Notes under the pieces: model-generated | What the model saw: the letters and a program-made list of their open reading frames with translations, nothing else | Databases searched by the model: none | What the model was told of the DNA's origin: nothing | Program-made: the position numbers and the translations under genes | Assembly (NCBI RefSeq): GCF_900102365.1 | Contig: NZ_FOIN01000006.1 | Span: 1 to 64,000, forward strand | From: Thomasclavelia cocleata | GTDB taxonomy: Bacteria > Bacillota_I > Bacilli_A > Erysipelotrichales > Coprobacillaceae | DNA: 64,000 bases | Reading direction: 5' to 3' | Part shown: piece after piece, positions 3,474-39,430 of the stretch | How the letters are laid out: the number at the start of each line of letters is the position of its first letter | How positions within the stretch are numbered: position 1 is the stretch's first letter

Positions 3474-3540
3474 ACTATAACATAAAAAAAGAGAAAAAAT
3501 TATTTTCTCAATTAAATGGTTAAATATCTGATTAAATGGT
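3474..3540 (-). promoter_or_regulatory. LytTR-like direct-repeat operator and promoter of the ABC operon
   Basis: On the minus strand two identical half-sites ACCATTTAAT (3540-3531 and 3520-3511) repeat with a 20-bp period. A TATAGT -10 box (3479-3474) follows 31 bp after the second half-site, and no good -35 box is seen. The same arrangement recurs at 5687-5754 and 8903-8970. Tandem half-sites one to two helical turns apart just upstream of a poor -35 box are typical of LytTR-type activators. Confidence 0.7.
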
Positions 3541-3800: not shown

Positions 3801-3841
3801 TATTAAAAAGCTATCATCATTAATATATGACGATAGCTTTT
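3801..3841 (-). terminator. Terminator of the NrdD-like/28-aa peptide unit, copy 1
   Basis: On the minus strand AAAAGCTATCGTCAT pairs with ATGATGATAGCTTTT through one G-T wobble, followed by a T-rich tail. The stem begins within the stop codon of the NrdD-like gene. A matching hairpin closes the second copy at 8315-8348. Confidence 0.65.
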
Positions 3842-4118
3842 ATGCATGTTTAATTCGATCTTTTTCTTCAGCTGCTTTAGCATCATTAAAACGATCAAGT
3901 GTTCCTACTAAATATCCAGTAATTCTTCTAATTCTTTCAAAGTTTTGGGGCTGGAATACATAATCTAGATCAACATCTTCACCATCAATTGTGATTGAAA
4001 GTGATTTTAGGGTTTCATCAGGATGCTTATTTTCTAGATATTTTATATATGCTTGAATTTCTTCTTCATCCATATATCCATTTTTTACTTCTACTTTAAC
4101 ATTATCAAAATCTTTCAT
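3840..4118 (-). CDS. Stand-alone NrdD C-terminal (glycyl-radical) domain protein, copy 1
   Basis: This 92-residue protein ends in RIRRITGYLVGTLDRFN and KDRIKH. That matches the C-terminal signature of anaerobic ribonucleoside-triphosphate reductase NrdD (E. coli: RRVCGYLG, FNAGK, RRVKH), in which the Gly of the GY pair carries the radical; here that Gly is residue 68. Small proteins of this type are sometimes named anaerobic ribonucleotide reductase, but the whole catalytic barrel is absent. By analogy with YfiD/GrcA for pyruvate formate-lyase it could be a replacement radical domain, which is inference. The ATG at 4118 has GAGGTGAT upstream. It sits 62 bp below a 28-residue peptide gene, and the same pair recurs at 8347-8770. 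Confidence 0.6.
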   Translation of the reverse strand: MKDFDNVKVEVKNGYMDEEEIQAYIKYLENKHPDETLKSLSITIDGEDVDLDYVFQPQNFERIRRITGYLVGTLDRFNDAKAAEEKDRIKHA

Positions 4119-4180: not shown

Positions 4181-4267
4181 TTATAACCAGTAACAAATAA
4201 TCATAAAGATAATCATTGAAAGAATAATTGATAGAACCTGGTTGATTTTCTTAAACATATATTTCAT
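4181..4267 (-). CDS. 28-residue membrane peptide, copy 1
   Basis: A short gene reads MKYMFKKINQVLS followed by about 13 hydrophobic residues (mostly Ile, Met, Phe and Leu) and ends CYWL. One positively charged end plus a single membrane-spanning stretch is visible, and no signal peptidase site or double-Gly leader. AAAGGAATG lies 12 bp before the ATG. A paralogue with the same length and mostly conservative changes lies at 8684-8770, again directly upstream of an NrdD-like gene, which supports real coding. Function is unknown: a signalling peptide, a small membrane regulator or a type I toxin-like peptide are all possible. Confidence 0.6.
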   Translation of the reverse strand: MKYMFKKINQVLSIILSMIIFMIICYWL

Positions 4268-4392
4268 ACTAACTTTACATTCCTTTCTGTTTGTAGTTAT
4301 AAGATGTACATAATTATGAATAAAATCTTGTTTTATTGAAGGGGTCTTTAAGTAAGTGTTTTTTTATTTGAATGTACTAGATTTATTTAGAT

Positions 4393-4427
4393 TATCATCA
4401 GTATATTATATGTATATACTGATGATA
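4393..4427. repeat. Perfect 14-bp inverted repeat
   Basis: TATCATCAGTATAT and its reverse complement ATATACTGATGATA flank a 7-base loop. No T-tract follows on either strand, so it is more likely a regulator site or an mRNA structure than a terminator. It lies between the LytTR gene and the 28-residue peptide gene. In the duplicated unit only the right arm region (near 8783) is recognisable. Confidence 0.5.
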
Positions 4428-4488
4428 TTAGTCATAGCATTAGACTAGATAAAATATATAGTTAATCAGTAATACTAATTTTTATGGT

Positions 4489-4519
4489 AAAAAGATGAAG
4501 TTTTTAATTTCATCTTTTA
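4489..4519 (-). terminator. Terminator downstream of the LytTR gene
   Basis: Minus-strand AAAAGATGAA and TTCATCTTTT pair around a 9-base loop and are followed by T-rich sequence, about 30 bp past the regulator stop codon. Confidence 0.6.
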
Positions 4520-4545
4520 GTAGCTAAGTATTTAATTAAATGATA

Positions 4546-5211
4546 TTAATGATTTTCTTCATAAAAAGCTTTTAAAACTGAATTTTTATTACGACGACTT
4601 ACATCAAATAAACAATTGACGCCATTTAAATAAATTCCTTCTTTAGTTAATTTACAAATTTTCTTTTTATTCACAATTACACTGCGATTAACTTGGATGA
4701 AATTATTTTTTAAAAGCTGCAACAGTTCTTTTAATGTTTTGTTTTTTATTATTATTTGCTCATCATCAAATATTACAGCAATATTCATATCTCCTAAGTA
4801 CATACAATATATTATGCTGTTTATTTGGATATCAAGCATTTCACCATCTATTTTTAAATTAACAATATGATGTTTTTTAATCCTGTTAATCATCTTTGAA
4901 ACGTTTACAACTAAGTCTTTTTTTAAATTATCCTTGCTAATAAAACCATAGATATTAGGTCCAAAGGCTTCTTTACAGCGAGAATAATTGTTAGCTATAA
5001 AAAGTATTTTTTTATCCTCATTAATTTTTGCATACTTTATACCATCATAATCAGGCATATCAATATTTAAAATAACAAAATCAAAATCTTTATTAAGCTG
5101 ATAAATAGAATTATATGTATAAACTCTAATATCATCAAATTTTAGTAACAAGATATCTTTTATTTTATCACAAGATACTTGTTTATCATCTATTATTCCA
5201 ATTGTAATCAT
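4546..5211 (-). CDS. LytTR-family response regulator with a degenerate receiver
   Basis: The 221-residue protein has an N-terminal receiver (residues 1-105) with the acidic pair D8-D9 and a C-terminal LytTR DNA-binding domain (about 113-215, with FIQVNRSVIVNKKKI and the start of strand NRSV typical of AgrA/ComE). The motif that should carry the phosphorylated Asp reads ILNIDMPDYDG, so the acceptor position is Asn49. No histidine kinase gene is near. AgrA-like regulators bind tandem 9-10 bp repeats, and three such repeat pairs lie around this gene (3511, 5687, 8903), so it is the obvious candidate controller of the ABC exporter, the secreted protein and the lipoproteins. The start has GAGGGGGGAA upstream. 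Phosphorylation-independent action is inferred. Confidence 0.85.
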   Translation of the reverse strand: MITIGIIDDKQVSCDKIKDILLLKFDDIRVYTYNSIYQLNKDFDFVILNIDMPDYDGIKYAKINEDKKILFIANNYSRCKEAFGPNIYGFISKDNLKKDLVVNVSKMINRIKKHHIVNLKIDGEMLDIQINSIIYCMYLGDMNIAVIFDDEQIIIKNKTLKELLQLLKNNFIQVNRSVIVNKKKICKLTKEGIYLNGVNCLFDVSRRNKNSVLKAFYEENH

Positions 5212-5680
5212 TATTTTTCCCCCCTCAATCTCTCTGTATTATGAAGATATTGCTCCCATTTCTTGTATAATATCATTGAATTAAATAGCAGTAAAATAAT
5301 AAGATAATAAATATAAATAAATAATTTTTAATATCAGAAAGTTAATGTATTTCTTATATATTTATAATACTATAAATTGATTTTTAATTGTATTATTTTA
5401 ACTTTATTTTGTCAGTATTAAATTAAAAAATAAAATTATAAGTTTTTTATCTAGTTTAAATTAAAGTGGTGTATAAATATAAAAACTTATAAAAAGTAAT
5501 ATTGAAAAACCATGGATAAATATTGGGTTTTATCAAAAGAAACTATATTAAACATAGAAGTAAAAAATATTTTAATAAATTAAAGTAGCTAAATATAATC
5601 ACTGGTAACATTAAGAACAATGTACCAGAAATGTTTATTTAGACATGATAAAAAGTTTAAAAATAGTGTATATTATATAA
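5212..5680. other. AT-rich region upstream of LytTR, no gene supported
   Basis: About 470 bp without a convincing gene. It must hold the minus-strand promoter of the LytTR gene, but no copy of the shared operator is present there, so the regulator does not obviously control itself. A 23-codon frame at 5512-5583 lacks a ribosome binding site. Confidence 0.5.
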
Positions 5681-5686
5681 AATAAC

Positions 5687-5754
5687 ACCGTTTAATTAGA
5701 TATTTAACCATTAAATGGGGAAATGAATAATTTCTTATTTTATTGTGTTATAGT
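5687..5754 (+). promoter_or_regulatory. LytTR-like operator and promoter of the secreted-protein unit
   Basis: Half-sites ACCGTTTAAT (5687) and ACCATTAAAT (5707) repeat with a 20-bp period, and TATAGT at 5749-5754 follows 32 bp after the second. The first half-site fits the published LytTR consensus (W-M-M-GTT-N-R-K) at eight of nine positions. Flanks on both sides (AAATAGTGT before, ATAATTT and TTGTGTTATAGTAAA after) are shared with the copy at 8903-8970. A leader of about 225 nt separates this promoter from the first gene. Confidence 0.72.
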
Positions 5755-5986
5755 AAAGATAAGAAAAGAGATAATAATAGAAGTTATCAATATACTAGGA
5801 AAAGTTTTCATTATATAAATAATTTATATTAGTATTAAATAATTTTGGTAGTTAATAAAATATATTTCATTAATTACTCAGATAAAAAAGGAGTGAAGAT
5901 ATTTGTATCAGGATTAATGAAACATAAGTGTTATTTTATTAATTTCTTATAAATATATATATAATTAAATATGAGGAGGAAAATTT

Positions 5987-6346
5987 ATGAAACACAAAAA
6001 AATTTTATGTTGTTTTGTCTCAACATTATTATTTGGATTATTTATAGTACCAGTAATGGCAGCGGAAAGTTCTAATCAAACAACTGATGGAAAATATATT
6101 GTTTCTGTTACTTGTAATGCAAATGGTTCATCTCACACTATCAACGCTCGAAATGGTGCTACATATCCAATGGGTAAAGCTTATGTTACATATTCTGTAA
6201 GTGGTTCTGTGAAAGAAAATGTTTCAGTAAATGGAGCATCATATAGATCATATTGGACTGCTAGTCGCCCTAAAAAGTCAGATAATGAAACTTTTATAAA
6301 TGCAACTACATCAGGTTATGGTATAAAGGTTTATACTTCAAATTAA
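5987..6346 (+). CDS. Small secreted protein, unknown function
   Basis: The 119-residue product has a classic signal peptide (KHKK, hydrophobic core, cleavage near VMA-AES at residue 25-26) and a mature part of about 93 residues rich in Ser, Thr, Asn, Gly and Tyr with one Cys. GAGGAGGAAAATTT precedes the ATG. It is the first gene below a LytTR-type operator and is followed by a 12-bp-stem terminator and then a lipoprotein. Size, composition and the presence of an ABC exporter recall lactococcin 972-type bacteriocins, but the characteristic Trp/His motifs of that family are not clear, so this is only a suggestion. Confidence 0.75.
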   Translation: MKHKKILCCFVSTLLFGLFIVPVMAAESSNQTTDGKYIVSVTCNANGSSHTINARNGATYPMGKAYVTYSVSGSVKENVSVNGASYRSYWTASRPKKSDNETFINATTSGYGIKVYTSN

Positions 6347-6360
6347 TAGTTTTTAATAAA

Positions 6361-6390
6361 ATATAGTGCTAGTAATAACTAGCACTATAT
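6361..6390 (+). terminator. Hairpin between secreted-protein and lipoprotein genes
   Basis: ATATAGTGCTAG and CTAGCACTATAT form a perfect 12-bp stem with a 6-base loop. The tail is A-rich then T-rich, so termination may be partial and act as an attenuator for the lipoprotein gene that has no other obvious promoter. Confidence 0.5.
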
Positions 6391-6472
6391 AAAAATTTAT
6401 AGAATATTTTTTGTTTGAATGTTAAATGGAAAAAATATTTAATATTATTGATAATTGATGGGGGGAGAAAAA

Positions 6473-7951
6473 TTGAAAAAATTTTTACTTTTAACAATAA
6501 GTTTAATATTAGTTTTACAAATAACTGGATGTACAAAAAAGAATGAAATTGATACTGGTACAGTTGTTTGGAGAGTTGCAGCAGGTGGAAATATTGAAGA
6601 TATGACAAATGAAATGATAGAGGTATGGCAGAAGCCTCTTAATGAGTTATTAAAAGAAAAAAAGGCATCATATCAAGTAAAAATTATACCATTTAGTAAT
6701 AAGAAGGAAAATAAGCAGATACAAGATTTAAAAGAATTGAAAAAAAATGGAGAGCAAACGGATGTTATTACTATATTGCCAGAGAGTCAGGATTATGAAT
6801 TAACATCATGGAATAATACTTATAAACATGCAGTTGAAAACAAGTTACTTTTAGATTTAGATAAATGGAAAGAAAAGAATCAGAAGATCTTAGAAGAAGT
6901 ATTGACTCCATATGATTTTGAACTTTCAAAAATAGATAATAGATTATATGGTATTTCAAGTAATGTACCAATGACTTCAGGAATTATGTATCAAAAAGAA
7001 CTTTTAGATAAGACTGGAATAGATATCAAAGACATAAAAAGTAACGTATTTGAAAATAGTAATTTATTAACTCAAGTAAAAGATAAAATTAATAGAATTC
7101 CTCTTAATAATGTATATTTAGATCCTGGATTATGGATTGTATCTCCTGTTGATAATTTAGTGTGGACAAAAGATAAAGGATTTATTTCTTTAAGTAAATC
7201 AAGAGAGTATAAAGATTTACTATATCAATGTGTTACTTTAAGACAACAAGGATTACTTGAACTTGAGTCGGTTGAGGAAAGTGCTGTGTCGTTTGCTGCT
7301 TCATTTGGAAGAGGTATAAGTACACGGGCTATATTTAAAAGTTTGTCTGTATCACAGAAAGAATTTATAGTAGTTCCTGATGAATCAAAGCCAGACATGA
7401 ATTTATATTGGGGTGATAATAAAACAGGAATTGCTTCATGGTCTGAAAATAATAAAAATGCAGAAGATTTTCTTTTAAAACTTTTTACAGATAAAGATAT
7501 CGCTAATTTGATTCAGTATGGAATTGAGGGGAAGGATTATCAGCTTGATGAAAATAATCATGTTAAAGTAATTACTGATAAATTAGGATTAAAGATTTTT
7601 GGTTATCAATACACAAATCCCAAAATTACATATTCTTCAATTTATGAAGAAGATGACAAAATTGAATATTCAAATTGGTTTTATTCAAAATATGGAGAAG
7701 ATTTTCCTAAAGGTTTTAGATTTGAAGCAATGCCAGTAATAAAAGATATTAATACAGTTAATAAAGTATGGAATACATATTTTGATGAACAAACTGCTAC
7801 TGGATTAACCAATAAGTTGTATATGTTAGATGTTAAAGACATAGATGTTTTTTTAGAAGATTTAAATAAAACATTAGACGATGCTGGAATGCAAAAAATA
7901 GTAGATGAAGCCAATCGTCAATATCAAGAATGGTTGAAAGAAGCAAAATAA
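6473..7951 (+). CDS. Solute-binding-type lipoprotein, copy 1
   Basis: The 492-residue product has a lipoprotein signal with lipobox ITGC (Cys20 from the chosen start) and the layout of family 1 extracellular solute-binding proteins of the LplA/DUF3502 kind: the C-terminus GMQKIVDEANRQYQEWLK is typical. The start is taken as TTG at 6473 because GGGGGAG lies 6 bp before it; in-frame starts at 6455/6458 would overlap this site. It is paralogous along its whole length to the lipoprotein at 9047-10573. No sugar or peptide permease genes are nearby, so it may be a receptor rather than a transporter component. Confidence 0.75.
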   Translation: MKKFLLLTISLILVLQITGCTKKNEIDTGTVVWRVAAGGNIEDMTNEMIEVWQKPLNELLKEKKASYQVKIIPFSNKKENKQIQDLKELKKNGEQTDVITILPESQDYELTSWNNTYKHAVENKLLLDLDKWKEKNQKILEEVLTPYDFELSKIDNRLYGISSNVPMTSGIMYQKELLDKTGIDIKDIKSNVFENSNLLTQVKDKINRIPLNNVYLDPGLWIVSPVDNLVWTKDKGFISLSKSREYKDLLYQCVTLRQQGLLELESVEESAVSFAASFGRGISTRAIFKSLSVSQKEFIVVPDESKPDMNLYWGDNKTGIASWSENNKNAEDFLLKLFTDKDIANLIQYGIEGKDYQLDENNHVKVITDKLGLKIFGYQYTNPKITYSSIYEEDDKIEYSNWFYSKYGEDFPKGFRFEAMPVIKDINTVNKVWNTYFDEQTATGLTNKLYMLDVKDIDVFLEDLNKTLDDAGMQKIVDEANRQYQEWLKEAK

Positions 7952-8082
7952 GATATAATATAGATTAAAAAATTATAATTTTTATTGTTTTAAATACTGT
8001 TTTTGTAAGTGGTTGCTATAAGAATACAGAAAGTCCAAGTGATATTGATGTGGAAGTATATAAACAGTTTTGAACATTAGAA
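7952..8082 (+). pseudogene. Remnant of the second lipoprotein gene (copy 1)
   Basis: Directly after the copy 1 binding protein, DNA resembles the first 130 bp of the lipoprotein gene at 10575: matching words include ATTGTTTTAAATACTG, TAAGTGGTTGC and AACATTAGAATC. The start codon is ATA instead of ATG, two As are missing from the poly-A run after it, and homology fades after about 8080. This shows the two-lipoprotein unit was duplicated and its second gene lost here. Confidence 0.7.
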
Positions 8083-8310
8083 TCTTTAATGAATCAATAG
8101 TTATTTGTTCATTTATTCTAAGAAAGATAATTTGATTTATGTATTGAATTAGTTGTATATATTTTAAGATTATCAAGAATTAAAAGTACTATATCTCAAT
8201 AGATTTTATTTATTTTCTATTAATGTAACTGTAATTGATGTGATTTCTTTTGTTTTGCCATAACAGTGAAATAAAAAGATTATAAATAGTAGGATTGTAG
8301 AAAAATGGTT
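8083..8310. other. Decayed intergenic DNA
   Basis: No gene, RNA or repeat could be supported. It probably represents the eroded remainder of the lost lipoprotein gene, because it occupies the equivalent place, but recognisable similarity stops near 8080. Confidence 0.4.
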
Positions 8311-8314
8311 ATTA

Positions 8315-8348
8315 AAAAGCTATCATCATTAAAATGATAATAGCTTTT
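8315..8348 (-). terminator. Terminator of the NrdD-like unit, copy 2
   Basis: AAAAGCTATCATCATT and AATGATAATAGCTTTT form a long stem with one mismatch. It is homologous to the hairpin at 3801-3841. Confidence 0.55.
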
Positions 8349-8625
8349 ATACATATTTAACACGATCACTTTCTTCTGCTGCTTTAGCATTATTAAAACG
8401 ATTAAGAGTTCCAACTAAATAATCAGTTATTTTTCTAATTTTTTCAAAATTTTGTGTCTGGAATATATAATCTAAATTTACATCTTTACCATCAATTATG
8501 ATTGAAAGTGATTTTAATGTTTCATCAGGAAACTTATTTTCTAAATATTTAATATAAGCTTGAATTTCTTTATCTTCCATATAACCATTTTTAACTTCAA
8601 CTAGTATATTGTTAAAATCTTTTAT
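8347..8625 (-). pseudogene. NrdD C-terminal-like protein, copy 2, decayed
   Basis: The frame is homologous over its full length to the 92-residue protein at 3840-4118, but three defects stand out. The original ATG is ATA (8625-8623), the GAGGTGAT ribosome binding site has become CAAGTAATATC, and the Gly that would carry the radical is Asp (KITDYLVG in place of RITGYLVG). A shorter product could start at an internal ATG at 8580 (77 residues) but no Shine-Dalgarno sequence serves it. The 28-residue peptide gene upstream remains intact. Confidence 0.65.
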
Positions 8626-8683
8626 TGATATTACTTGAATTATTATAACAGTTATAAAAATATTTAATATCTAATATGCACTA

Positions 8684-8770
8684 TTACAGCCAATAACGAA
8701 TAATCATAAATATGATTATTGATAAGATGATTGAAAGAACCTGGGTAACTTTTTTAAACATATATTTCAT
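8684..8770 (-). CDS. 28-residue membrane peptide, copy 2
   Basis: This gene reads MKYMFKKVTQVLS, then an Ile-rich hydrophobic stretch and RYWL. It differs from copy 1 at only four positions (IN to VT, one Met to Ile, Cys to Arg) and keeps the length and reading frame, while many silent third-position changes separate the two. That pattern suggests selection on the peptide, more so than on the neighbouring NrdD-like copy. GGTGAT lies 3-8 bp before the ATG. Confidence 0.6.
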   Translation of the reverse strand: MKYMFKKVTQVLSIILSIIIFMIIRYWL

Positions 8771-8902
8771 GTTATCACCATTATATGTATATAGTAATGA
8801 GATTAGTTATAACATTAAAGTATGTTTATTAAAAAATATTGTAAATATATTTATGATTTATTCTTGATAAAGTACTTAAAAATAGTGTGTGTATAAAATA
8901 CA

Positions 8903-8970
8903 ACCATTTAATTAGATATTTAGCCATTAAATAGGGAAACGAATAATTTTTTATTATATTGTGTTATAGT
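8903..8970 (+). promoter_or_regulatory. LytTR-like operator and promoter of the lipoprotein pair
   Basis: Half-sites ACCATTTAAT (8903) and GCCATTAAAT (8923) repeat with a 20-bp period, and TATAGT at 8965-8970 follows 32 bp after the second. Arrangement and flanks match the operator at 5687-5754. The gene start at 9047 lies about 70 nt below. Confidence 0.72.
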
Positions 8971-9046: not shown

Positions 9047-10573
9047 ATGAAAAAAGTATTACTGTTTATTTTAACTTTAGCACTGTGTTTACAAATAACA
9101 GCCTGCACACAAAATAATAATACAAAAAAAGGTGATGTAGATAAGAAAACTGTTGTATGGAGAATTGCAGATCCTGGTGGTATGGCATCTTTAGGTGATG
9201 AATTAATTGAAGCATGGGAAGAACCGCTTAATGAATTGTTGAAGGAAAAGGGTGCTTCTTATCAAGTTAAGATTATGACTTTTAATACTCAAGAAACAGA
9301 TAAGAAACTAGATGAGTTAAAAGAACTAAAAGAAAATGGGGAACAAACTGATATAGTATCAATGTTCTTTACATCTTATAATGATACTGAAGTTGATGAT
9401 TGGAAAAATACGTATAGATATGTTGTTAATAATAAATTACTTAGAAATTTAGATGAGTGGAAAGAAAAAAATAAAGAGATATTAGAAAAGGTGCTGGTTC
9501 CTTATGATTTTGAGTTATCAAAAATGGATAATGAATTGTATGGTATTTCAAGTCATGTACCTATTATTAATGGTTTGATGTATAATAAAAAAATGTTAGA
9601 TGAGTATGGAATTAATATTAATGATATTAAGGATAATATATTTGACAATACTGAATTGTTGATTCAGGCAAAGAAAAATAGCAAGGAAATTCCAATACAA
9701 TTTATAGGACTTGATTCTAGTACGCTAGGTTTGTGGATTGTACCACCGACAAATAATCTAGCCTGGAAAAAAGGTGAAGGTTTTATTTCTTTAAGCCAGT
9801 CAAAAGAGTATAAAAATTCATTGGCTAACTATTTATCACTAAAACAGCAAGGTTTGCTTGACCAGGCTCTTCCTAAAAATAACGTTATTCCTTTTGCTAC
9901 AGTGGCTACAATGAGTAGGCGAGATGCATTTGAAATCAATACAGCTTATCGTTCTATGTCCCAAACAGTACAAAGTGATGATTTTGTTATTGTCCCTAAT
10001 TATTCTACACCAAATATGGAATTATATTGGGGAGATAATAAAACATCAATTGCATCTTGGTCTGAAAATATTGAAAATGCAGAAGATTTTCTTTTAAAAT
10101 TATTTACAGATAAAGATATTGCAAATCTTATTCAATATGGCGTTAAAGATCAAGATTATACACTCGATAAAGACAATCATATTACTGTAACTACTAAAAA
10201 TAATGGATTATCTATATTTGGATATCAGTTTACAAATCCTAAGATTACTTATTCATCTGTTTATGAGGAAGATGACAAAGTTGAATATTCAAATTGGTTT
10301 TATACAGAATATGGTGATAACTTTCCTAAAGGTTTCAGATTTGATCCAATTCCAGTTTTAGATGAAATTAGTGCTACGAATAAAATAATGACAGGGGATT
10401 TCATTAATGAATATCAAGAAAGTGAATGGATGAATAAAATAGCTAAATTAGAAATAGAAGATTTAGATACTTTCTTAAAAGATATGAATAAAGAATTAGA
10501 TAAAGCAGGTATGCAAAAAATAGTAGATGAAGCTAATCGTCAATATCAGGAGTGGTTAAAAGGAGTAAAATAA
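9047..10573 (+). CDS. Solute-binding-type lipoprotein, copy 2
   Basis: This 508-residue lipoprotein (lipobox ITAC, Cys20) is the paralogue of the protein at 6473-7951; both share stretches such as FLLKLFTDKDIANLIQYG and the C-terminal GMQKIVDEANRQYQEWLK. It has the fold-level features of family 1 extracellular solute-binding proteins with a DUF3502-like tail. Its ATG has GGGGATGA upstream and it lies directly below a LytTR-type operator. The final codons contain the AAAGGAG that serves the next gene, whose start is 1 bp past this stop codon, so the two are coupled. No cognate permease is encoded nearby. Confidence 0.78.
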   Translation: MKKVLLFILTLALCLQITACTQNNNTKKGDVDKKTVVWRIADPGGMASLGDELIEAWEEPLNELLKEKGASYQVKIMTFNTQETDKKLDELKELKENGEQTDIVSMFFTSYNDTEVDDWKNTYRYVVNNKLLRNLDEWKEKNKEILEKVLVPYDFELSKMDNELYGISSHVPIINGLMYNKKMLDEYGININDIKDNIFDNTELLIQAKKNSKEIPIQFIGLDSSTLGLWIVPPTNNLAWKKGEGFISLSQSKEYKNSLANYLSLKQQGLLDQALPKNNVIPFATVATMSRRDAFEINTAYRSMSQTVQSDDFVIVPNYSTPNMELYWGDNKTSIASWSENIENAEDFLLKLFTDKDIANLIQYGVKDQDYTLDKDNHITVTTKNNGLSIFGYQFTNPKITYSSVYEEDDKVEYSNWFYTEYGDNFPKGFRFDPIPVLDEISATNKIMTGDFINEYQESEWMNKIAKLEIEDLDTFLKDMNKELDKAGMQKIVDEANRQYQEWLKGVK

Positions 10574-16635: not shown

Positions 16636-17469
16636 ATGCGATTACATTTTACTAAAATGGAAGGTCTTGGTAATGATTATATATATTTTGATGGAATAAA
16701 TCAGAAAATTCCCATGGATAAAGAATTTATCACGAAAATAAGTGATCGACATTTTGGAATTGGAAGTGATGGAATGATTGTTATTCTAGCATCAGATAAA
16801 TATGATTTTAAAATGCGAATGTTTAATCTTGATGGCAGTGAAGCAATGATGTGTGGTAATGGAATTCGTTGTTTTGCGAAATTTATTTATGATCATAAAT
16901 TAAGTGATAAACATGTATTGAAAATTGAAACCAAATCTGGATTAAGAATTGTTGAATTATTGTTTGAAGATGGTAGATGTATTGGGGCTAAAGTAAATAT
17001 GGGTAAACCGATTTTAAGATGTAAAGAGATTCCCTGTATTTATGATAAAGAGAAAATGATTAATGAAGCTATGATAGTTGATGATCATGAATATCATTTG
17101 ACAACGATTTCAATGGGGAATCCTCACACAGTAATCTTTGTTGATGATTTAGAAATTTTGGATTTAGCAGTGCTTGGTCCTAAATTTGAGCATCATGAGT
17201 TATTTCCTGAAAGTGTTAACACTGAATTTGTTCAGGTAGTTAATGAACAGTATATAAAGATGAGAGTTTGGGAAAGAGGTTCAGGTGAAACTATGGCTTG
17301 TGGTACTGGAGCTTGTGCTTCAATGTATGCAAGTTATCTAAATGGTTATACTAAAGATAAAGTTATTGTACAATTATTAGGTGGTTGTTTAGAAATTGAG
17401 TATCTTGATGGCATAATTATGATGTCTGGACCAGCTGTTAATGTTTTTGAAGGAATAATTGAAATATAG
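16636..17469 (+). CDS. dapF: Diaminopimelate epimerase
   Basis: The 277-residue enzyme converts LL- to meso-diaminopimelate, the last step before peptidoglycan cross-linker and lysine. Both catalytic Cys motifs are visible: EAMMCGNGIRCF (Cys73) and ETMACGTGACAS, together with the N-terminal FTKMEGLGNDY. The ATG at 16636 follows AAAGGAGGGG; an in-frame start at 16597 has no such site. It leads a four-gene operon for the acetylated diaminopimelate route. Confidence 0.95.
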   Translation: MRLHFTKMEGLGNDYIYFDGINQKIPMDKEFITKISDRHFGIGSDGMIVILASDKYDFKMRMFNLDGSEAMMCGNGIRCFAKFIYDHKLSDKHVLKIETKSGLRIVELLFEDGRCIGAKVNMGKPILRCKEIPCIYDKEKMINEAMIVDDHEYHLTTISMGNPHTVIFVDDLEILDLAVLGPKFEHHELFPESVNTEFVQVVNEQYIKMRVWERGSGETMACGTGACASMYASYLNGYTKDKVIVQLLGGCLEIEYLDGIIMMSGPAVNVFEGIIEI

Positions 17470-17483
17470 AATAGGAGCGAATT

Positions 17484-18188
17484 ATGTTAAATAGTGCAGA
17501 AGAAATTATTAAATTTATTGGTGATGCTGAAAAACAAACAATAGTAAAGGTTTATTTAAAAGGTGAAAATTTACCTGAGGCAACTGATTTTAAGATGTTT
17601 GGTGGAGATGAAAGTAAAGTTTGTATAGGTAATCTAGATGTAATAAAAGCATATATGGAAGCTAATGAAAATATTATTACTGATTTTTATTTAGAACAGG
17701 ATCGACGTAACAGTGCAATTCCATTATTAGATGTGACAAATATTAATGCTCGTATTGAACCAGGAGCTTTAATTAGAGATCATGTAAAAATTGGTAATAA
17801 TGCTGTTATTATGATGGGTGCAATAATTAATATTGGAGCTGTAATTGGCGAGGAAACAATGATTGATATGGGAGCTGTTTTAGGTGGCCGTGTTGAAGTT
17901 GGAAAACGTTGTCATGTTGGAGCGGGAGCTGTTCTAGCAGGGGTAATTGAACCACCTAGTGCAACACCAGTAATTTTAGAAGATGATGTTTTAATTGGGG
18001 CTAATGCAGTAGTTATTGAAGGAGTAAGAATTGGTAAAGGAGCTGTTGTTGGAGCGGGAGCTATTGTTAGACAAGATGTTCCAGCTGGTGCAGTAGTGGT
18101 TGGGAATCCAGCTAGAATCATTAAACAGCAAAAAGATGAAAAGACTGATAGTAAAACCCAGTTAATGGATGATTTAAGAAAATTATAG
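17484..18188 (+). CDS. dapH: Tetrahydrodipicolinate N-acetyltransferase
   Basis: The 234-residue protein has an N-terminal alpha/beta domain (ADFKMFG-like [10 protein letters not shown]) and a left-handed beta-helix built of hexapeptide repeats ([20 protein letters not shown] and onward). It acetylates tetrahydrodipicolinate using acetyl-CoA, the first committed step of the acetylase route to diaminopimelate. Length and motifs match DapH rather than the succinyltransferase DapD. The start lies 14 bp after dapF with TAGGAGCG before it. The short Lys/Asp-rich tail is usual for the family. Confidence 0.93.
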
Positions 18189-18197
18189 GAGAAAGAT

Positions 18198-19328
18198 ATG
18201 GATGCTTTAGAGCAAATAAAAAAATGGCGTCAAGAATTACATCAAATTCCTGAGCCTGGTTTGCATGAGTATAAAACTTCAAAATATCTAAAAACGGAAC
18301 TTCTTAAAATGGGATATCAGCCAATTGCTGTATTAAAGACAGGTGTCCTTGTATATATTGATAATGGTTATGATAAAACACTTGCTTTTCGCAGTGATAT
18401 TGATGCTTTAAAGATAAAAGAAGAAACTAAGTGTAGTTTTATTTCTCAACATGATGGATATATGCATGCTTGTGGTCATGATGGACATATGGCTGCTTTG
18501 TTAGGGTTTGCTAAAAAATTAAAAGATAAACCTTTATCATCAAATGTTAATATCTTACTTATTTTTCAACCTGCTGAGGAATCACCAGGTGGTGCTAAAT
18601 TATTAGTTGAAGCTGGGATATTGAATAAATATAATGTAAAAGCAATTTTTGGAATGCATCTAATGCCAACAATAGATGAAGGTAAGATTGCTTGCCGAGC
18701 TGGTCCTTTAATGGCCCAAAATGGTGAACTGGATGTGACTGTAATTGGTAAAAGTGCTCATGCAGGATTATATCATTTTGGTGTTGATTCAATCGTAATT
18801 GCTAGTTCGATAATTGGTCAATACCAAAATATTATTTCTCGAGTTGTTTCTCCTGTTGAAAGTTGTGTAATTAATATTGGGGAAATCAGTGGTGGAACAG
18901 CTAGAAATATTGTTGCAGATAAAACAGTATTTAGAGGAACAGTAAGAACTTATAGTGAAGCAGTATTTAAAAAAATCACTGATACAATGCAGGCAATTAA
19001 TTGTGGGATGGAAAGAAGTTATGGATGTAAAATTGAATTTAGTTGTCCACCGATGTATCCACCTGTGTTAAATGATTATGGTTTATATCAACAGTTTGTT
19101 AGGATAGTTAATGAAAATTATCTTGAACTTAAAGAACCATTAATGTTAGCTGAGGATTTTGCTTTTTATCAAAAAGAAATTCCAGGAATTTTCTTTTATC
19201 TAGGAACTAAGACTTCTCAGTATTCAAGTGGTTTACATACAGAAATATTTAATTTTAATGAAAATGTATTAATTAAAGCAGTTGATGTTTATTATCAGCT
19301 TGCTGCTAAAATAAAATTGGGGGAATGA
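18198..19328 (+). CDS. N-acetyl-LL-diaminopimelate deacetylase (M20 peptidase family)
   Basis: The 376-residue protein has M20/amidohydrolase metal-binding motifs: MHACGHDGHMA, the FQPAEESPGGAK segment with the catalytic Glu pair, and GMHLMP. Such enzymes include hippurate hydrolases, but its place between dapH and an acetylornithine-type aminotransferase fits N-acetyldiaminopimelate deacetylase (YkuR-like). GGAGAAAG precedes the ATG 9 bp after dapH. Its stop codon overlaps an ATG of the next gene. Confidence 0.88.
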   Translation: MDALEQIKKWRQELHQIPEPGLHEYKTSKYLKTELLKMGYQPIAVLKTGVLVYIDNGYDKTLAFRSDIDALKIKEETKCSFISQHDGYMHACGHDGHMAALLGFAKKLKDKPLSSNVNILLIFQPAEESPGGAKLLVEAGILNKYNVKAIFGMHLMPTIDEGKIACRAGPLMAQNGELDVTVIGKSAHAGLYHFGVDSIVIASSIIGQYQNIISRVVSPVESCVINIGEISGGTARNIVADKTVFRGTVRTYSEAVFKKITDTMQAINCGMERSYGCKIEFSCPPMYPPVLNDYGLYQQFVRIVNENYLELKEPLMLAEDFAFYQKEIPGIFFYLGTKTSQYSSGLHTEIFNFNENVLIKAVDVYYQLAAKIKLGE

Positions 19329-19330
19329 AA

Positions 19331-20518
19331 ATGAGTTATTATGATAGAGCTAATAATGCGTTTATGAAAGCATATGGTAGATTTGATGTTACTTTTGATT
19401 ATGGTAAAGGAGTTTATCTTTATGATAAAGATGGTAAAAGGTATTTAGACTTTTATTCTGGAATAGGTGTTAATTCATTTGGTTATGATTATAAACCATA
19501 TGTTGATGCAATGACTGATCAGTTGCATCGCTTAATGCATATATCAAATTATTTTAATAGTGTTGAAGCGATAGAAGCAGCTGAAGCAGTTATTAAAGCA
19601 ACAAAATTAAATCAAGTATTTTTTACAAATAGTGGTACAGAAGCGACAGAAGGAGCTTTGAAATTAGCTCGTAAATATTATTATGAAAAGCATGGTAAGG
19701 CAGATAGTGAAATCATAAGCTTAAAACATTCATTTCATGGTCGTTCTACTGGTTCAGTTACACTAACAGGAACTCCTGCCTATCAAACAGCATTTGGACC
19801 ATTGATTGAAGGAGTTAAATACGCTGATATTAATGACTTAGAATCAGTTAAGAAATTAATTACACCTCGCACAGCAGCGATTATTCTAGAACCTGTTCAA
19901 GGTGAAGGTGGCGTTCATGTTTGTAGCCAAGCATTTATGAATGGAATAAGACAAATATGTGATGAATATGATATTGTGATGATTTTAGATGAAGTTCAAT
20001 GTGGAATGGGTAGAACAGGAACAATCATGACATATTTTCAATATGGAATCTTGCCAGATGTTGTTTGTTTAGCTAAAGGAATTGGAGCTGGTTTTCCAAT
20101 AGGTGCCTTTGTTGCTAACAAAAAGGTAGGAGATGCGTTAAAACCAGGGGATCATGGTTCAACTTATGGTGGTAATCCAATGGCTGGCTGTGCTTGTAAA
20201 ACAGTATTTAAAATTATTGATGAGCAGAAAATGTTAAAACATGTTCAAGATATTAGTGAATATTTAATTGATAAATTAGATGAGATAGTAGAAAAATATG
20301 ATTGGATAAAAGAGCGTCGAGGATTAGGATTGATGATTGGTTTAGAGTTTACTCATCCAGTTAAGCCATATATTCAAAAAGCATTAGATAAAGGTTTAGT
20401 TTTAATTACAGCAGGAACTAATGTAATTAGGATGTTACCACCATTTATTATTGAGGAAAAAGATGTTGATGAAATGATTAAAATCTTGACAGAAGTAATT
20501 GAGGAAGTTAATAATTAG
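19331..20518 (+). CDS. ArgD-like class III aminotransferase, probably N-acetyl-diaminopimelate aminotransferase
   Basis: This 395-residue PLP enzyme has the acetylornithine aminotransferase signature: FTNSGTEATEGALKLAR, ILEPVQGEGG, ILDEVQCGMGRTG and the Lys-bearing CLAKGIGAGFPIGA. In this operon the missing step is the amino transfer to N-acetyl-2-amino-6-ketopimelate, normally done by PatA or a bifunctional ArgD/DapC, and no arginine genes are near, so that role is inferred. ATG codons at 19325 and 19331 are both possible; GGGGGA (19319-19324) is better spaced for the second. Confidence 0.85.
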   Translation: MSYYDRANNAFMKAYGRFDVTFDYGKGVYLYDKDGKRYLDFYSGIGVNSFGYDYKPYVDAMTDQLHRLMHISNYFNSVEAIEAAEAVIKATKLNQVFFTNSGTEATEGALKLARKYYYEKHGKADSEIISLKHSFHGRSTGSVTLTGTPAYQTAFGPLIEGVKYADINDLESVKKLITPRTAAIILEPVQGEGGVHVCSQAFMNGIRQICDEYDIVMILDEVQCGMGRTGTIMTYFQYGILPDVVCLAKGIGAGFPIGAFVANKKVGDALKPGDHGSTYGGNPMAGCACKTVFKIIDEQKMLKHVQDISEYLIDKLDEIVEKYDWIKERRGLGLMIGLEFTHPVKPYIQKALDKGLVLITAGTNVIRMLPPFIIEEKDVDEMIKILTEVIEEVNN

Positions 20519-38862: not shown

Positions 38863-39430
38863 GTACGTATATCTGGCTGGTGAAAATCCAATCGCAGATA
38901 ATTACTGTCAAACATAGTGAATCATAAGTCGTTAACAGTGATGCTATGGTTGGGAAGTGGTGTAGTAAGTTTTTTGAGATTACGAACAGAAATTTGATAT
39001 AAGGCTAAATGGTGGATAATGTAGTACATCAAACTGAAATCCAAGGTCAAAGAAGGTTGTCACAAGAAGTCGGTTTGAGGCATATATAGTAGATATATCA
39101 CTAATAGTGAAGAGTTTAATGTTTATATGGTGTAGCTCACTATGTGTAATATTTAGCCAGTTTGAAATCAAGAATAATTTTATAATTAATAACTGTAATC
39201 TTGTGGGAAAGTAGAGTATAAAGCAACAACATAAAATTAATTGAAGTGATTTTAAGAGATGAAAATTTTAATGAAGCAACAGAAAAATTAAAAGTAATAA
39301 AGGTGTAGCTAGAGTCAATAATAAGATAACAGCGAACAAAATTGATAAATATTTTATAGCTAATAAAGAGAAGATAAAACAGGAAATAATAGAAAATAAA
39401 TATAAACTCTACATTCATGATGAAATAAAT
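38863..39430 (+). pseudogene. Group II intron remnant (ribozyme 5' part and start of the reverse transcriptase)
   Basis: The DNA starts with GTACGTAT (intron 5' ends usually GUGYG) and carries a run typical of domain I of bacterial group II introns: GGTGAAAATCCAATCGC, GTGAATCATAAGTCGTTAAC and GATGCTATGGTTGGGAAGTG. From about 39240 frame pieces read VILRDENFNEATEKLKV, VNNKITANKIDKYFIANKEK and IKQEIIENKYKLYI, matching the N-terminus of intron-encoded reverse transcriptases, with stops and frameshifts. The catalytic YADD region and domains V-VI are absent. It is a dead 5' fragment next to the defence pair. Confidence 0.65.

Follow-up and report, generated by a model that had tools for sequence, protein, structure and literature searches.

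A stretch of 64 kb from Thomasclavelia cocleata (the window) carries on its minus strand two open reading frames (ORFs) of 28 residues, each followed downstream on the same strand by a short gene whose product ends like the class III ribonucleotide reductase (RNR) NrdD. The ORFs lie where a preliminary description had placed them, their products differ at four residues against a background of about 11 synonymous changes, and the short genes occupy positions 3840-4118 and 8347-8580. With 87 nt, both peptide ORFs fall below the usual 90-nt limit of Prodigal, while orthologues of 29-34 residues are at or above it. The four genes are:

4181..4267, minus strand: peptide copy 1, 28 aa, MKYMFKKINQVLSIILSMIIFMIICYWL; conserved orthologue, probably functional.
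8684..8770, minus strand: peptide copy 2, 28 aa, MKYMFKKVTQVLSIILSIIIFMIIRYWL; paralogue under relaxed constraint (N9T, C25R).
3840..4118, minus strand: NrdD-like copy 1, 92 aa, with an N-terminal beta-beta-alpha-beta-beta domain and the glycyl-radical loop RRITGYLVGTLDRFNDAKAAEEKDRIKHA; candidate NrdD spare part.
8347..8580, minus strand: NrdD-like copy 2, degenerate; the ancestral ATG is now ATA, the ribosome site is lost and the radical Gly has become Asp (RKITDYL).

We favor, with a probability of roughly 0.55, the reading that two unrelated small genes stand here side by side, one for a membrane microprotein and the other for a spare part that supplies the glycyl-radical loop of NrdD.

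Profile searches detected the peptide in 23 genomes of eight genera, Thomasclavelia, Massilimicrobiota and Stoquefichus among them, all belonging to one bacterial family; named carriers include T. saccharogumia, Massilimicrobiota timonensis and Candidatus Stoquefichus. The 22 genomes besides the focal one matched at E < 1e-12, and within the genus the peptide was present in eight of nine genomes. Outside the family, at most one weak, stop-containing match was obtained from 295 genomes sampled from the order, and in sister genera lacking the peptide no divergent version was recognized by eye upstream of dapF. Members are 28 to 34 residues long. They open with the near-invariant MKYM[FLW][KR][KR][VI]N, continue with a hydrophobic stretch and finish in residues rich in Tyr, His and Trp; M1, Y3, M4, I14, I23 and Y26 are invariant in an alignment of 20 sequences. 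Codon statistics and promoters were compared over 24 sequences, both window copies included: entropy was 0.72, 0.35 and 1.13 bits at codon positions 1, 2 and 3, and stops interrupted all three antisense frames and one other sense frame in 24/24 sequences and the remaining sense frame in 16/24. A Shine-Dalgarno-like element precedes all 24 copies and a CATA-type -10 box lies 17-25 nt upstream of the start codon in 23 of them; a sporulation-sigma reading of this box cannot be told apart from a sigma-A TATNNT box.

In all copies a stretch of 19 residues is strongly hydrophobic and the N-terminal charge is +1 to +3, and the family thus combines one hydrophobic helix, positive-inside charge and coding selection, as in single-pass membrane microproteins; the predicted single transmembrane helix agrees with the membrane character originally attributed to the peptide. 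None of 20 members searched gave a consistent Pfam or NCBIfam match, no homologue was found among PDB sequences, and the main-text table of the SIHUMIx small-protein study lists novel C. ramosum proteins of 20, 31, 44 and 58 aa but none of 28 aa (PMC7903761). Because the peptide is a conserved, membrane-type coding sequence under strong purifying selection, a function is likely. In our view it is a microprotein family not described before, conserved across several genera of the gut with Thomasclavelia among them, and it offers small-protein work a defined, selected target.

The two window copies have not fared alike. Their products are identical at 24/28 residues, with 11 synonymous changes over 15.2 sites (pS 0.73) and five nonsynonymous nucleotide changes over 65.8 sites (pN 0.076; Nei-Gojobori counts). 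Copy 1 differs from its counterparts in three comparison genomes of the same genus (G003, G004 and G006; comparison genomes carry codes beginning with G) by 8-11 synonymous and no nonsynonymous changes (pS 0.56-0.78, pN = 0), whereas copy 2 differs from that of G006 by three synonymous and five nonsynonymous changes and has lost Asn9, which is kept in 23/23 other sequences. In a tree of the peptide and NrdD-like cassette, copy 1 clusters with G003/G006 and copy 2 forms a longer branch. Judged from sequence, copy 1 of the pair is maintained and copy 2 is decaying. The peptide thus passed two of the checks that had been proposed for it, on homologues elsewhere (23 genomes, eight genera) and on synonymous versus nonsynonymous rates. 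The suggestion that conservation through duplication points to a function held as regards the function, which orthologue conservation makes likely, and failed as regards the duplication, copy 2 being relaxed.

The promoters of the copies differ as well:

4405..4412, minus strand: ancestral -10 box CATATAAT of peptide copy 1, identified from the -10 position conserved in the other 23 copies.
8780..8787, minus strand: -10 box CATATAAT of peptide copy 2, identified from sequence and conserved position.
8775-8779, minus strand: Shine-Dalgarno GGTGA of peptide copy 2, identified from sequence.

Extra sequence has pushed the copy 1 box away, to about 140 nt from the start codon. A perfect 14-bp inverted repeat (4393-4406 / 4414-4427), less perfect in relatives, overlaps it and is a possible operator or hairpin. 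Given the displaced box and the overlapping repeat, regulation of copy 1 may have changed.

Size, hydrophobicity, the duplicated copy and the lack of a family database match would suit a type I toxin, a membrane-depolarising peptide restrained by an antisense RNA. Such toxicity is nevertheless improbable: all other searched genomes, across eight genera, hold a single copy at one syntenic place, the window contains no Rfam antitoxin RNA at gathering thresholds, promoter-like sites around both copies are no commoner than in shuffled sequence, and PADLOC yielded neither a match nor a peptide homologue.

Clustering of the neighbor genes of 20 relatives pointed to a different ancestral context from that seen in the window. 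In 17/23 genomes the peptide is divergent from the dapF operon, with 70-140 bp between the start codons, and this operon, not the NrdD-like gene, is its ancestral neighbor. In the window the operon is parted from the peptide by an insertion with lipoproteins, a LytTR regulator, a MATE transporter and an integrase fragment, and lies at:

16636..20518, plus strand: dapF, DapD_Ac (N-acetyltransferase), an amidohydrolase/deacetylase and an ArgD-family aminotransferase, assigned by NCBIfam and synteny.

The conserved divergent promoter region could mean that the peptide acts in diaminopimelate/lysine or cell-wall biosynthesis, co-regulated with the dap genes. We consider this unlikely, as the peptide persists in G017, in which no dapF was found, and in the focal genome, G003 and G004 despite large insertions separating dapF, and many genomes of the same family have dapF yet lack the peptide. 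This retention suggests that the role of the peptide is independent of the dap genes.

Adjacency to the NrdD-like gene is confined to this genus plus one genome. In other genera as much as 37 kb separates the NrdD-like gene from the peptide, usually with an opposite-strand lipoprotein gene in between, and the adjacency in Thomasclavelia arises because that intervening gene is absent. A single functional pair could be argued from the adjacency in this genus, the joint duplication and the presence of the peptide in 20/20 NrdD-like-bearing genomes of its own family; set against distances of 1-37 kb in most other genera, with opposite-strand genes in between, it becomes very unlikely. The NrdD-like gene is missing from three peptide genomes and, conversely, occurs without the peptide in 18 genomes of a second family, so the apparent pairing is secondary and a meaningful link between the two genes was not supported. 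The lowest probability, a slight one, goes to the peptide being a leader peptide (attenuator) of the gene behind it, as might be suggested by its place some 60 nt before the start codon of the NrdD-like gene in the focal genome. Several genera have a hairpin-plus-T terminator directly after the peptide stop codon and the next gene on the opposite strand, which makes the peptide gene monocistronic there, and conservation at the amino-acid level with free synonymous change and no run of a regulatory codon does not suit an attenuator.

For the peptide we therefore return to the membrane microprotein. It would be translated, and expressed from a promoter of its own that points away from the dap operon, with a predicted N-in/C-out topology consisting of a basic cytoplasmic N-terminus, one helix of about 18 residues and an aromatic/His cap. 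KdpF, CydX, AcrZ and Prli42 are bitopic regulatory microproteins of bacteria, and the peptide is likewise very short, has a single predicted helix and is encoded by a stand-alone gene; it differs in having no sequence match to Pfam or NCBIfam. By this analogy, we give about even odds to its being an accessory subunit of a membrane protein, and in such an accessory or regulatory role it might use its helix and conserved N-terminus to bind a larger membrane protein.

The NrdD-like gene, the more promising of the two, has a distribution and a composition of its own. The last ~33 residues of the two window ORFs match PF13597 (E 6e-7 for 3840-4118 and 1e-3 for 8347-8580) and NCBIfam NrdD models match down to E 3e-12, with the profile match confined to positions ~531-562 of 562, so that these are not full-length NrdD proteins. 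A search of the focal genome with PF01228, the glycyl-radical family of pyruvate formate-lyase (PFL), did not pick up the locus. The gene is present in 38 genomes, divided between the peptide's family (20) and a second one (18), and encodes proteins of 86-95 aa, each a stand-alone glycyl-radical loop behind an additional domain. An alignment of 30 orthologues showed a common N-terminal domain and the loop RIRRITGYLVGT.DRFN..K.AEE.DRVKH, with the radical Gly retained in all orthologues compared, copy 2 excepted. The N-terminal domain is predicted to fold as beta-beta-alpha-beta-beta (block pLDDT 79-86 over residues 11-60). Copy 1 gave a pN/pS of about 0.10 against its closest orthologues, copy 2 of 0.27-0.35, and the neighbors of the gene vary between genomes, indicating that it is not an operon fragment.

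Compared with NrdD itself, the small protein shares the C-terminal ~33 residues including RRITGYL, with ~86% identity to the cognate enzyme, but has neither the catalytic barrel nor the zinc-binding cysteines. Loop identity was slightly higher with the NrdD of the same genome (0.86) than with other NrdDs (0.83; reached in 0/2000 shuffles), a difference confounded by phylogeny and not used as proof. The validated spare parts of glycyl radical enzymes are only YfiD and Y06I, both for PFL, and others for glycyl radical enzymes are considered possible (PMC8683613); literature searches, with subscription papers outside their coverage, found no report of a spare part for NrdD. Like YfiD/GrcA, the NrdD-like protein is short and stand-alone, bears a glycyl-radical loop with the radical Gly and has its parent enzyme in the same genome. 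It differs in that the loop is of the NrdD type (PF13597) rather than the PFL type (PF01228), with only ~36 residues shared, in that its N-terminal domain is predicted to be folded where that of YfiD is reported to be disordered, and in its occurrence in strict-anaerobe lineages.

On this comparison, the NrdD-like gene would encode a stand-alone glycyl-radical loop for NrdD, and the chance that its product is an NrdD spare part activated by NrdG is, in our estimate, around one half. The small protein would bind an NrdD deprived of its own loop, either by oxygen cleavage or by mutation, NrdG would place the glycyl radical on the bound protein, and NrdD activity would be restored in trans, as by YfiD/GrcA for PFL. 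In the focal genome the gene was duplicated together with the peptide, with copy 1 kept and copy 2 decaying. The radical glycine is the site at which oxygen destroys glycyl radical enzymes, and the making of DNA requires ribonucleotide reductase; such a spare part, if real, would account for the recovery of DNA synthesis in gut anaerobes that have been exposed to oxygen.

Two large NrdD genes without a loop fit this proposal, both in genomes of the focal genus: G008:C1:2176107-2177954 (L217) and G005:C348:925-2796 (L235). The NrdD of G008 was examined because the loop search of this complete assembly returned the small gene but no large NrdD. It ends in ...GLERIPRINLESE (...CPCCGRKENEHHGLERIPRINLESE) immediately before the stop, with the radical Gly and the tail gone, and that of G005 ends in ...HERISRITNYLAKKTGDD, with Asn in place of the radical Gly and the tail again gone; in both, an intact, constrained nrdG follows immediately. 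Among the matches listed in an order-wide PF13597 search, only these two end before the end of the profile. Both bodies are open over ~745 codons with pN/pS of 0.09-0.18, a range overlapping that of intact NrdDs (0.04-0.17). An intact small NrdD-like protein is present in G008; the gene was not found in G005, which is uninformative because this fragmented assembly lacks dapF and the peptide as well. We suspect, at a little less than even odds, that the tail-less NrdD of G008 depends on the small protein. With similar reserve, the NrdD-like protein might be the first spare part of a class III RNR, NrdD in two Thomasclavelia lineages now being a split enzyme whose radical resides on the small protein. 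The loop-only protein and the naturally loop-less NrdDs make the spare-part question directly testable.

The NrdD-like protein could instead act on NrdD/NrdG as a decoy or regulator, competing for NrdG for instance, or be a remnant of NrdD. Two points count for this reading: most genomes with the small gene also carry an intact NrdD, and the conserved N-terminal domain is not derived from NrdD. A random remnant would hardly show such strong purifying selection (pN/pS about 0.10) or occur in two families, while a pure inhibitor leaves unexplained both the retained radical Gly and the loss of the G008 NrdD's own loop. We consider the decoy or remnant rather unlikely, the least so of the alternatives. 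Several observations nonetheless weigh against a spare part. G008 is the only tail-less genome shown to carry the small gene; it also encodes another class III RNR whose loop is intact, as do G000 and G002, so its tail-less NrdD might be expendable and in the course of being lost, and pairwise pN/pS values involving this NrdD are slightly raised (0.15-0.18). The AlphaFold model of the small protein's loop is weak, and its N-terminal domain gave no significant Foldseek/PDB fold match (best E 0.14). The three peptide genomes without the small gene do have NrdD, and the NrdD-like gene is therefore not essential.

Further features were observed in the window and in relatives. Three near-identical 30-bp direct-repeat elements, ACCATTTAATNNGATATTTARCCATTWAAT, at 3511-3540 (minus), 5687-5716 (plus) and 8903-8932 (plus), where shuffled sequences lead to an expectation of 0, lie upstream of an ABC transporter gene, the secreted-protein gene at 5987 and a lipoprotein gene at 9047; their spacing resembles that of LytTR sites, and they probably mark the regulon of the LytTR regulator at 4546-5211. 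The gene at 5987-6346 (plus) encodes a secreted protein of 119 aa that matches a bacteriocin-like NCBIfam model weakly, below the cut-off, and its proximity to the LytTR regulator and the ABC transporter would be compatible with a possible bacteriocin locus. A group II intron domain (RF02001) at 38932-39101 (plus), scoring just above the gathering threshold, is the sole Rfam RNA in the window. In related genera (G031:C110, G015:C6, G037:C15, G017:C55, G014:C4, G046:C19 and others), a PFL-type glycyl radical enzyme appears split into a frame of ~690 aa without the radical loop and a glycyl-radical ORF of ~85 aa, the two being codirectional and a few hundred bases apart.
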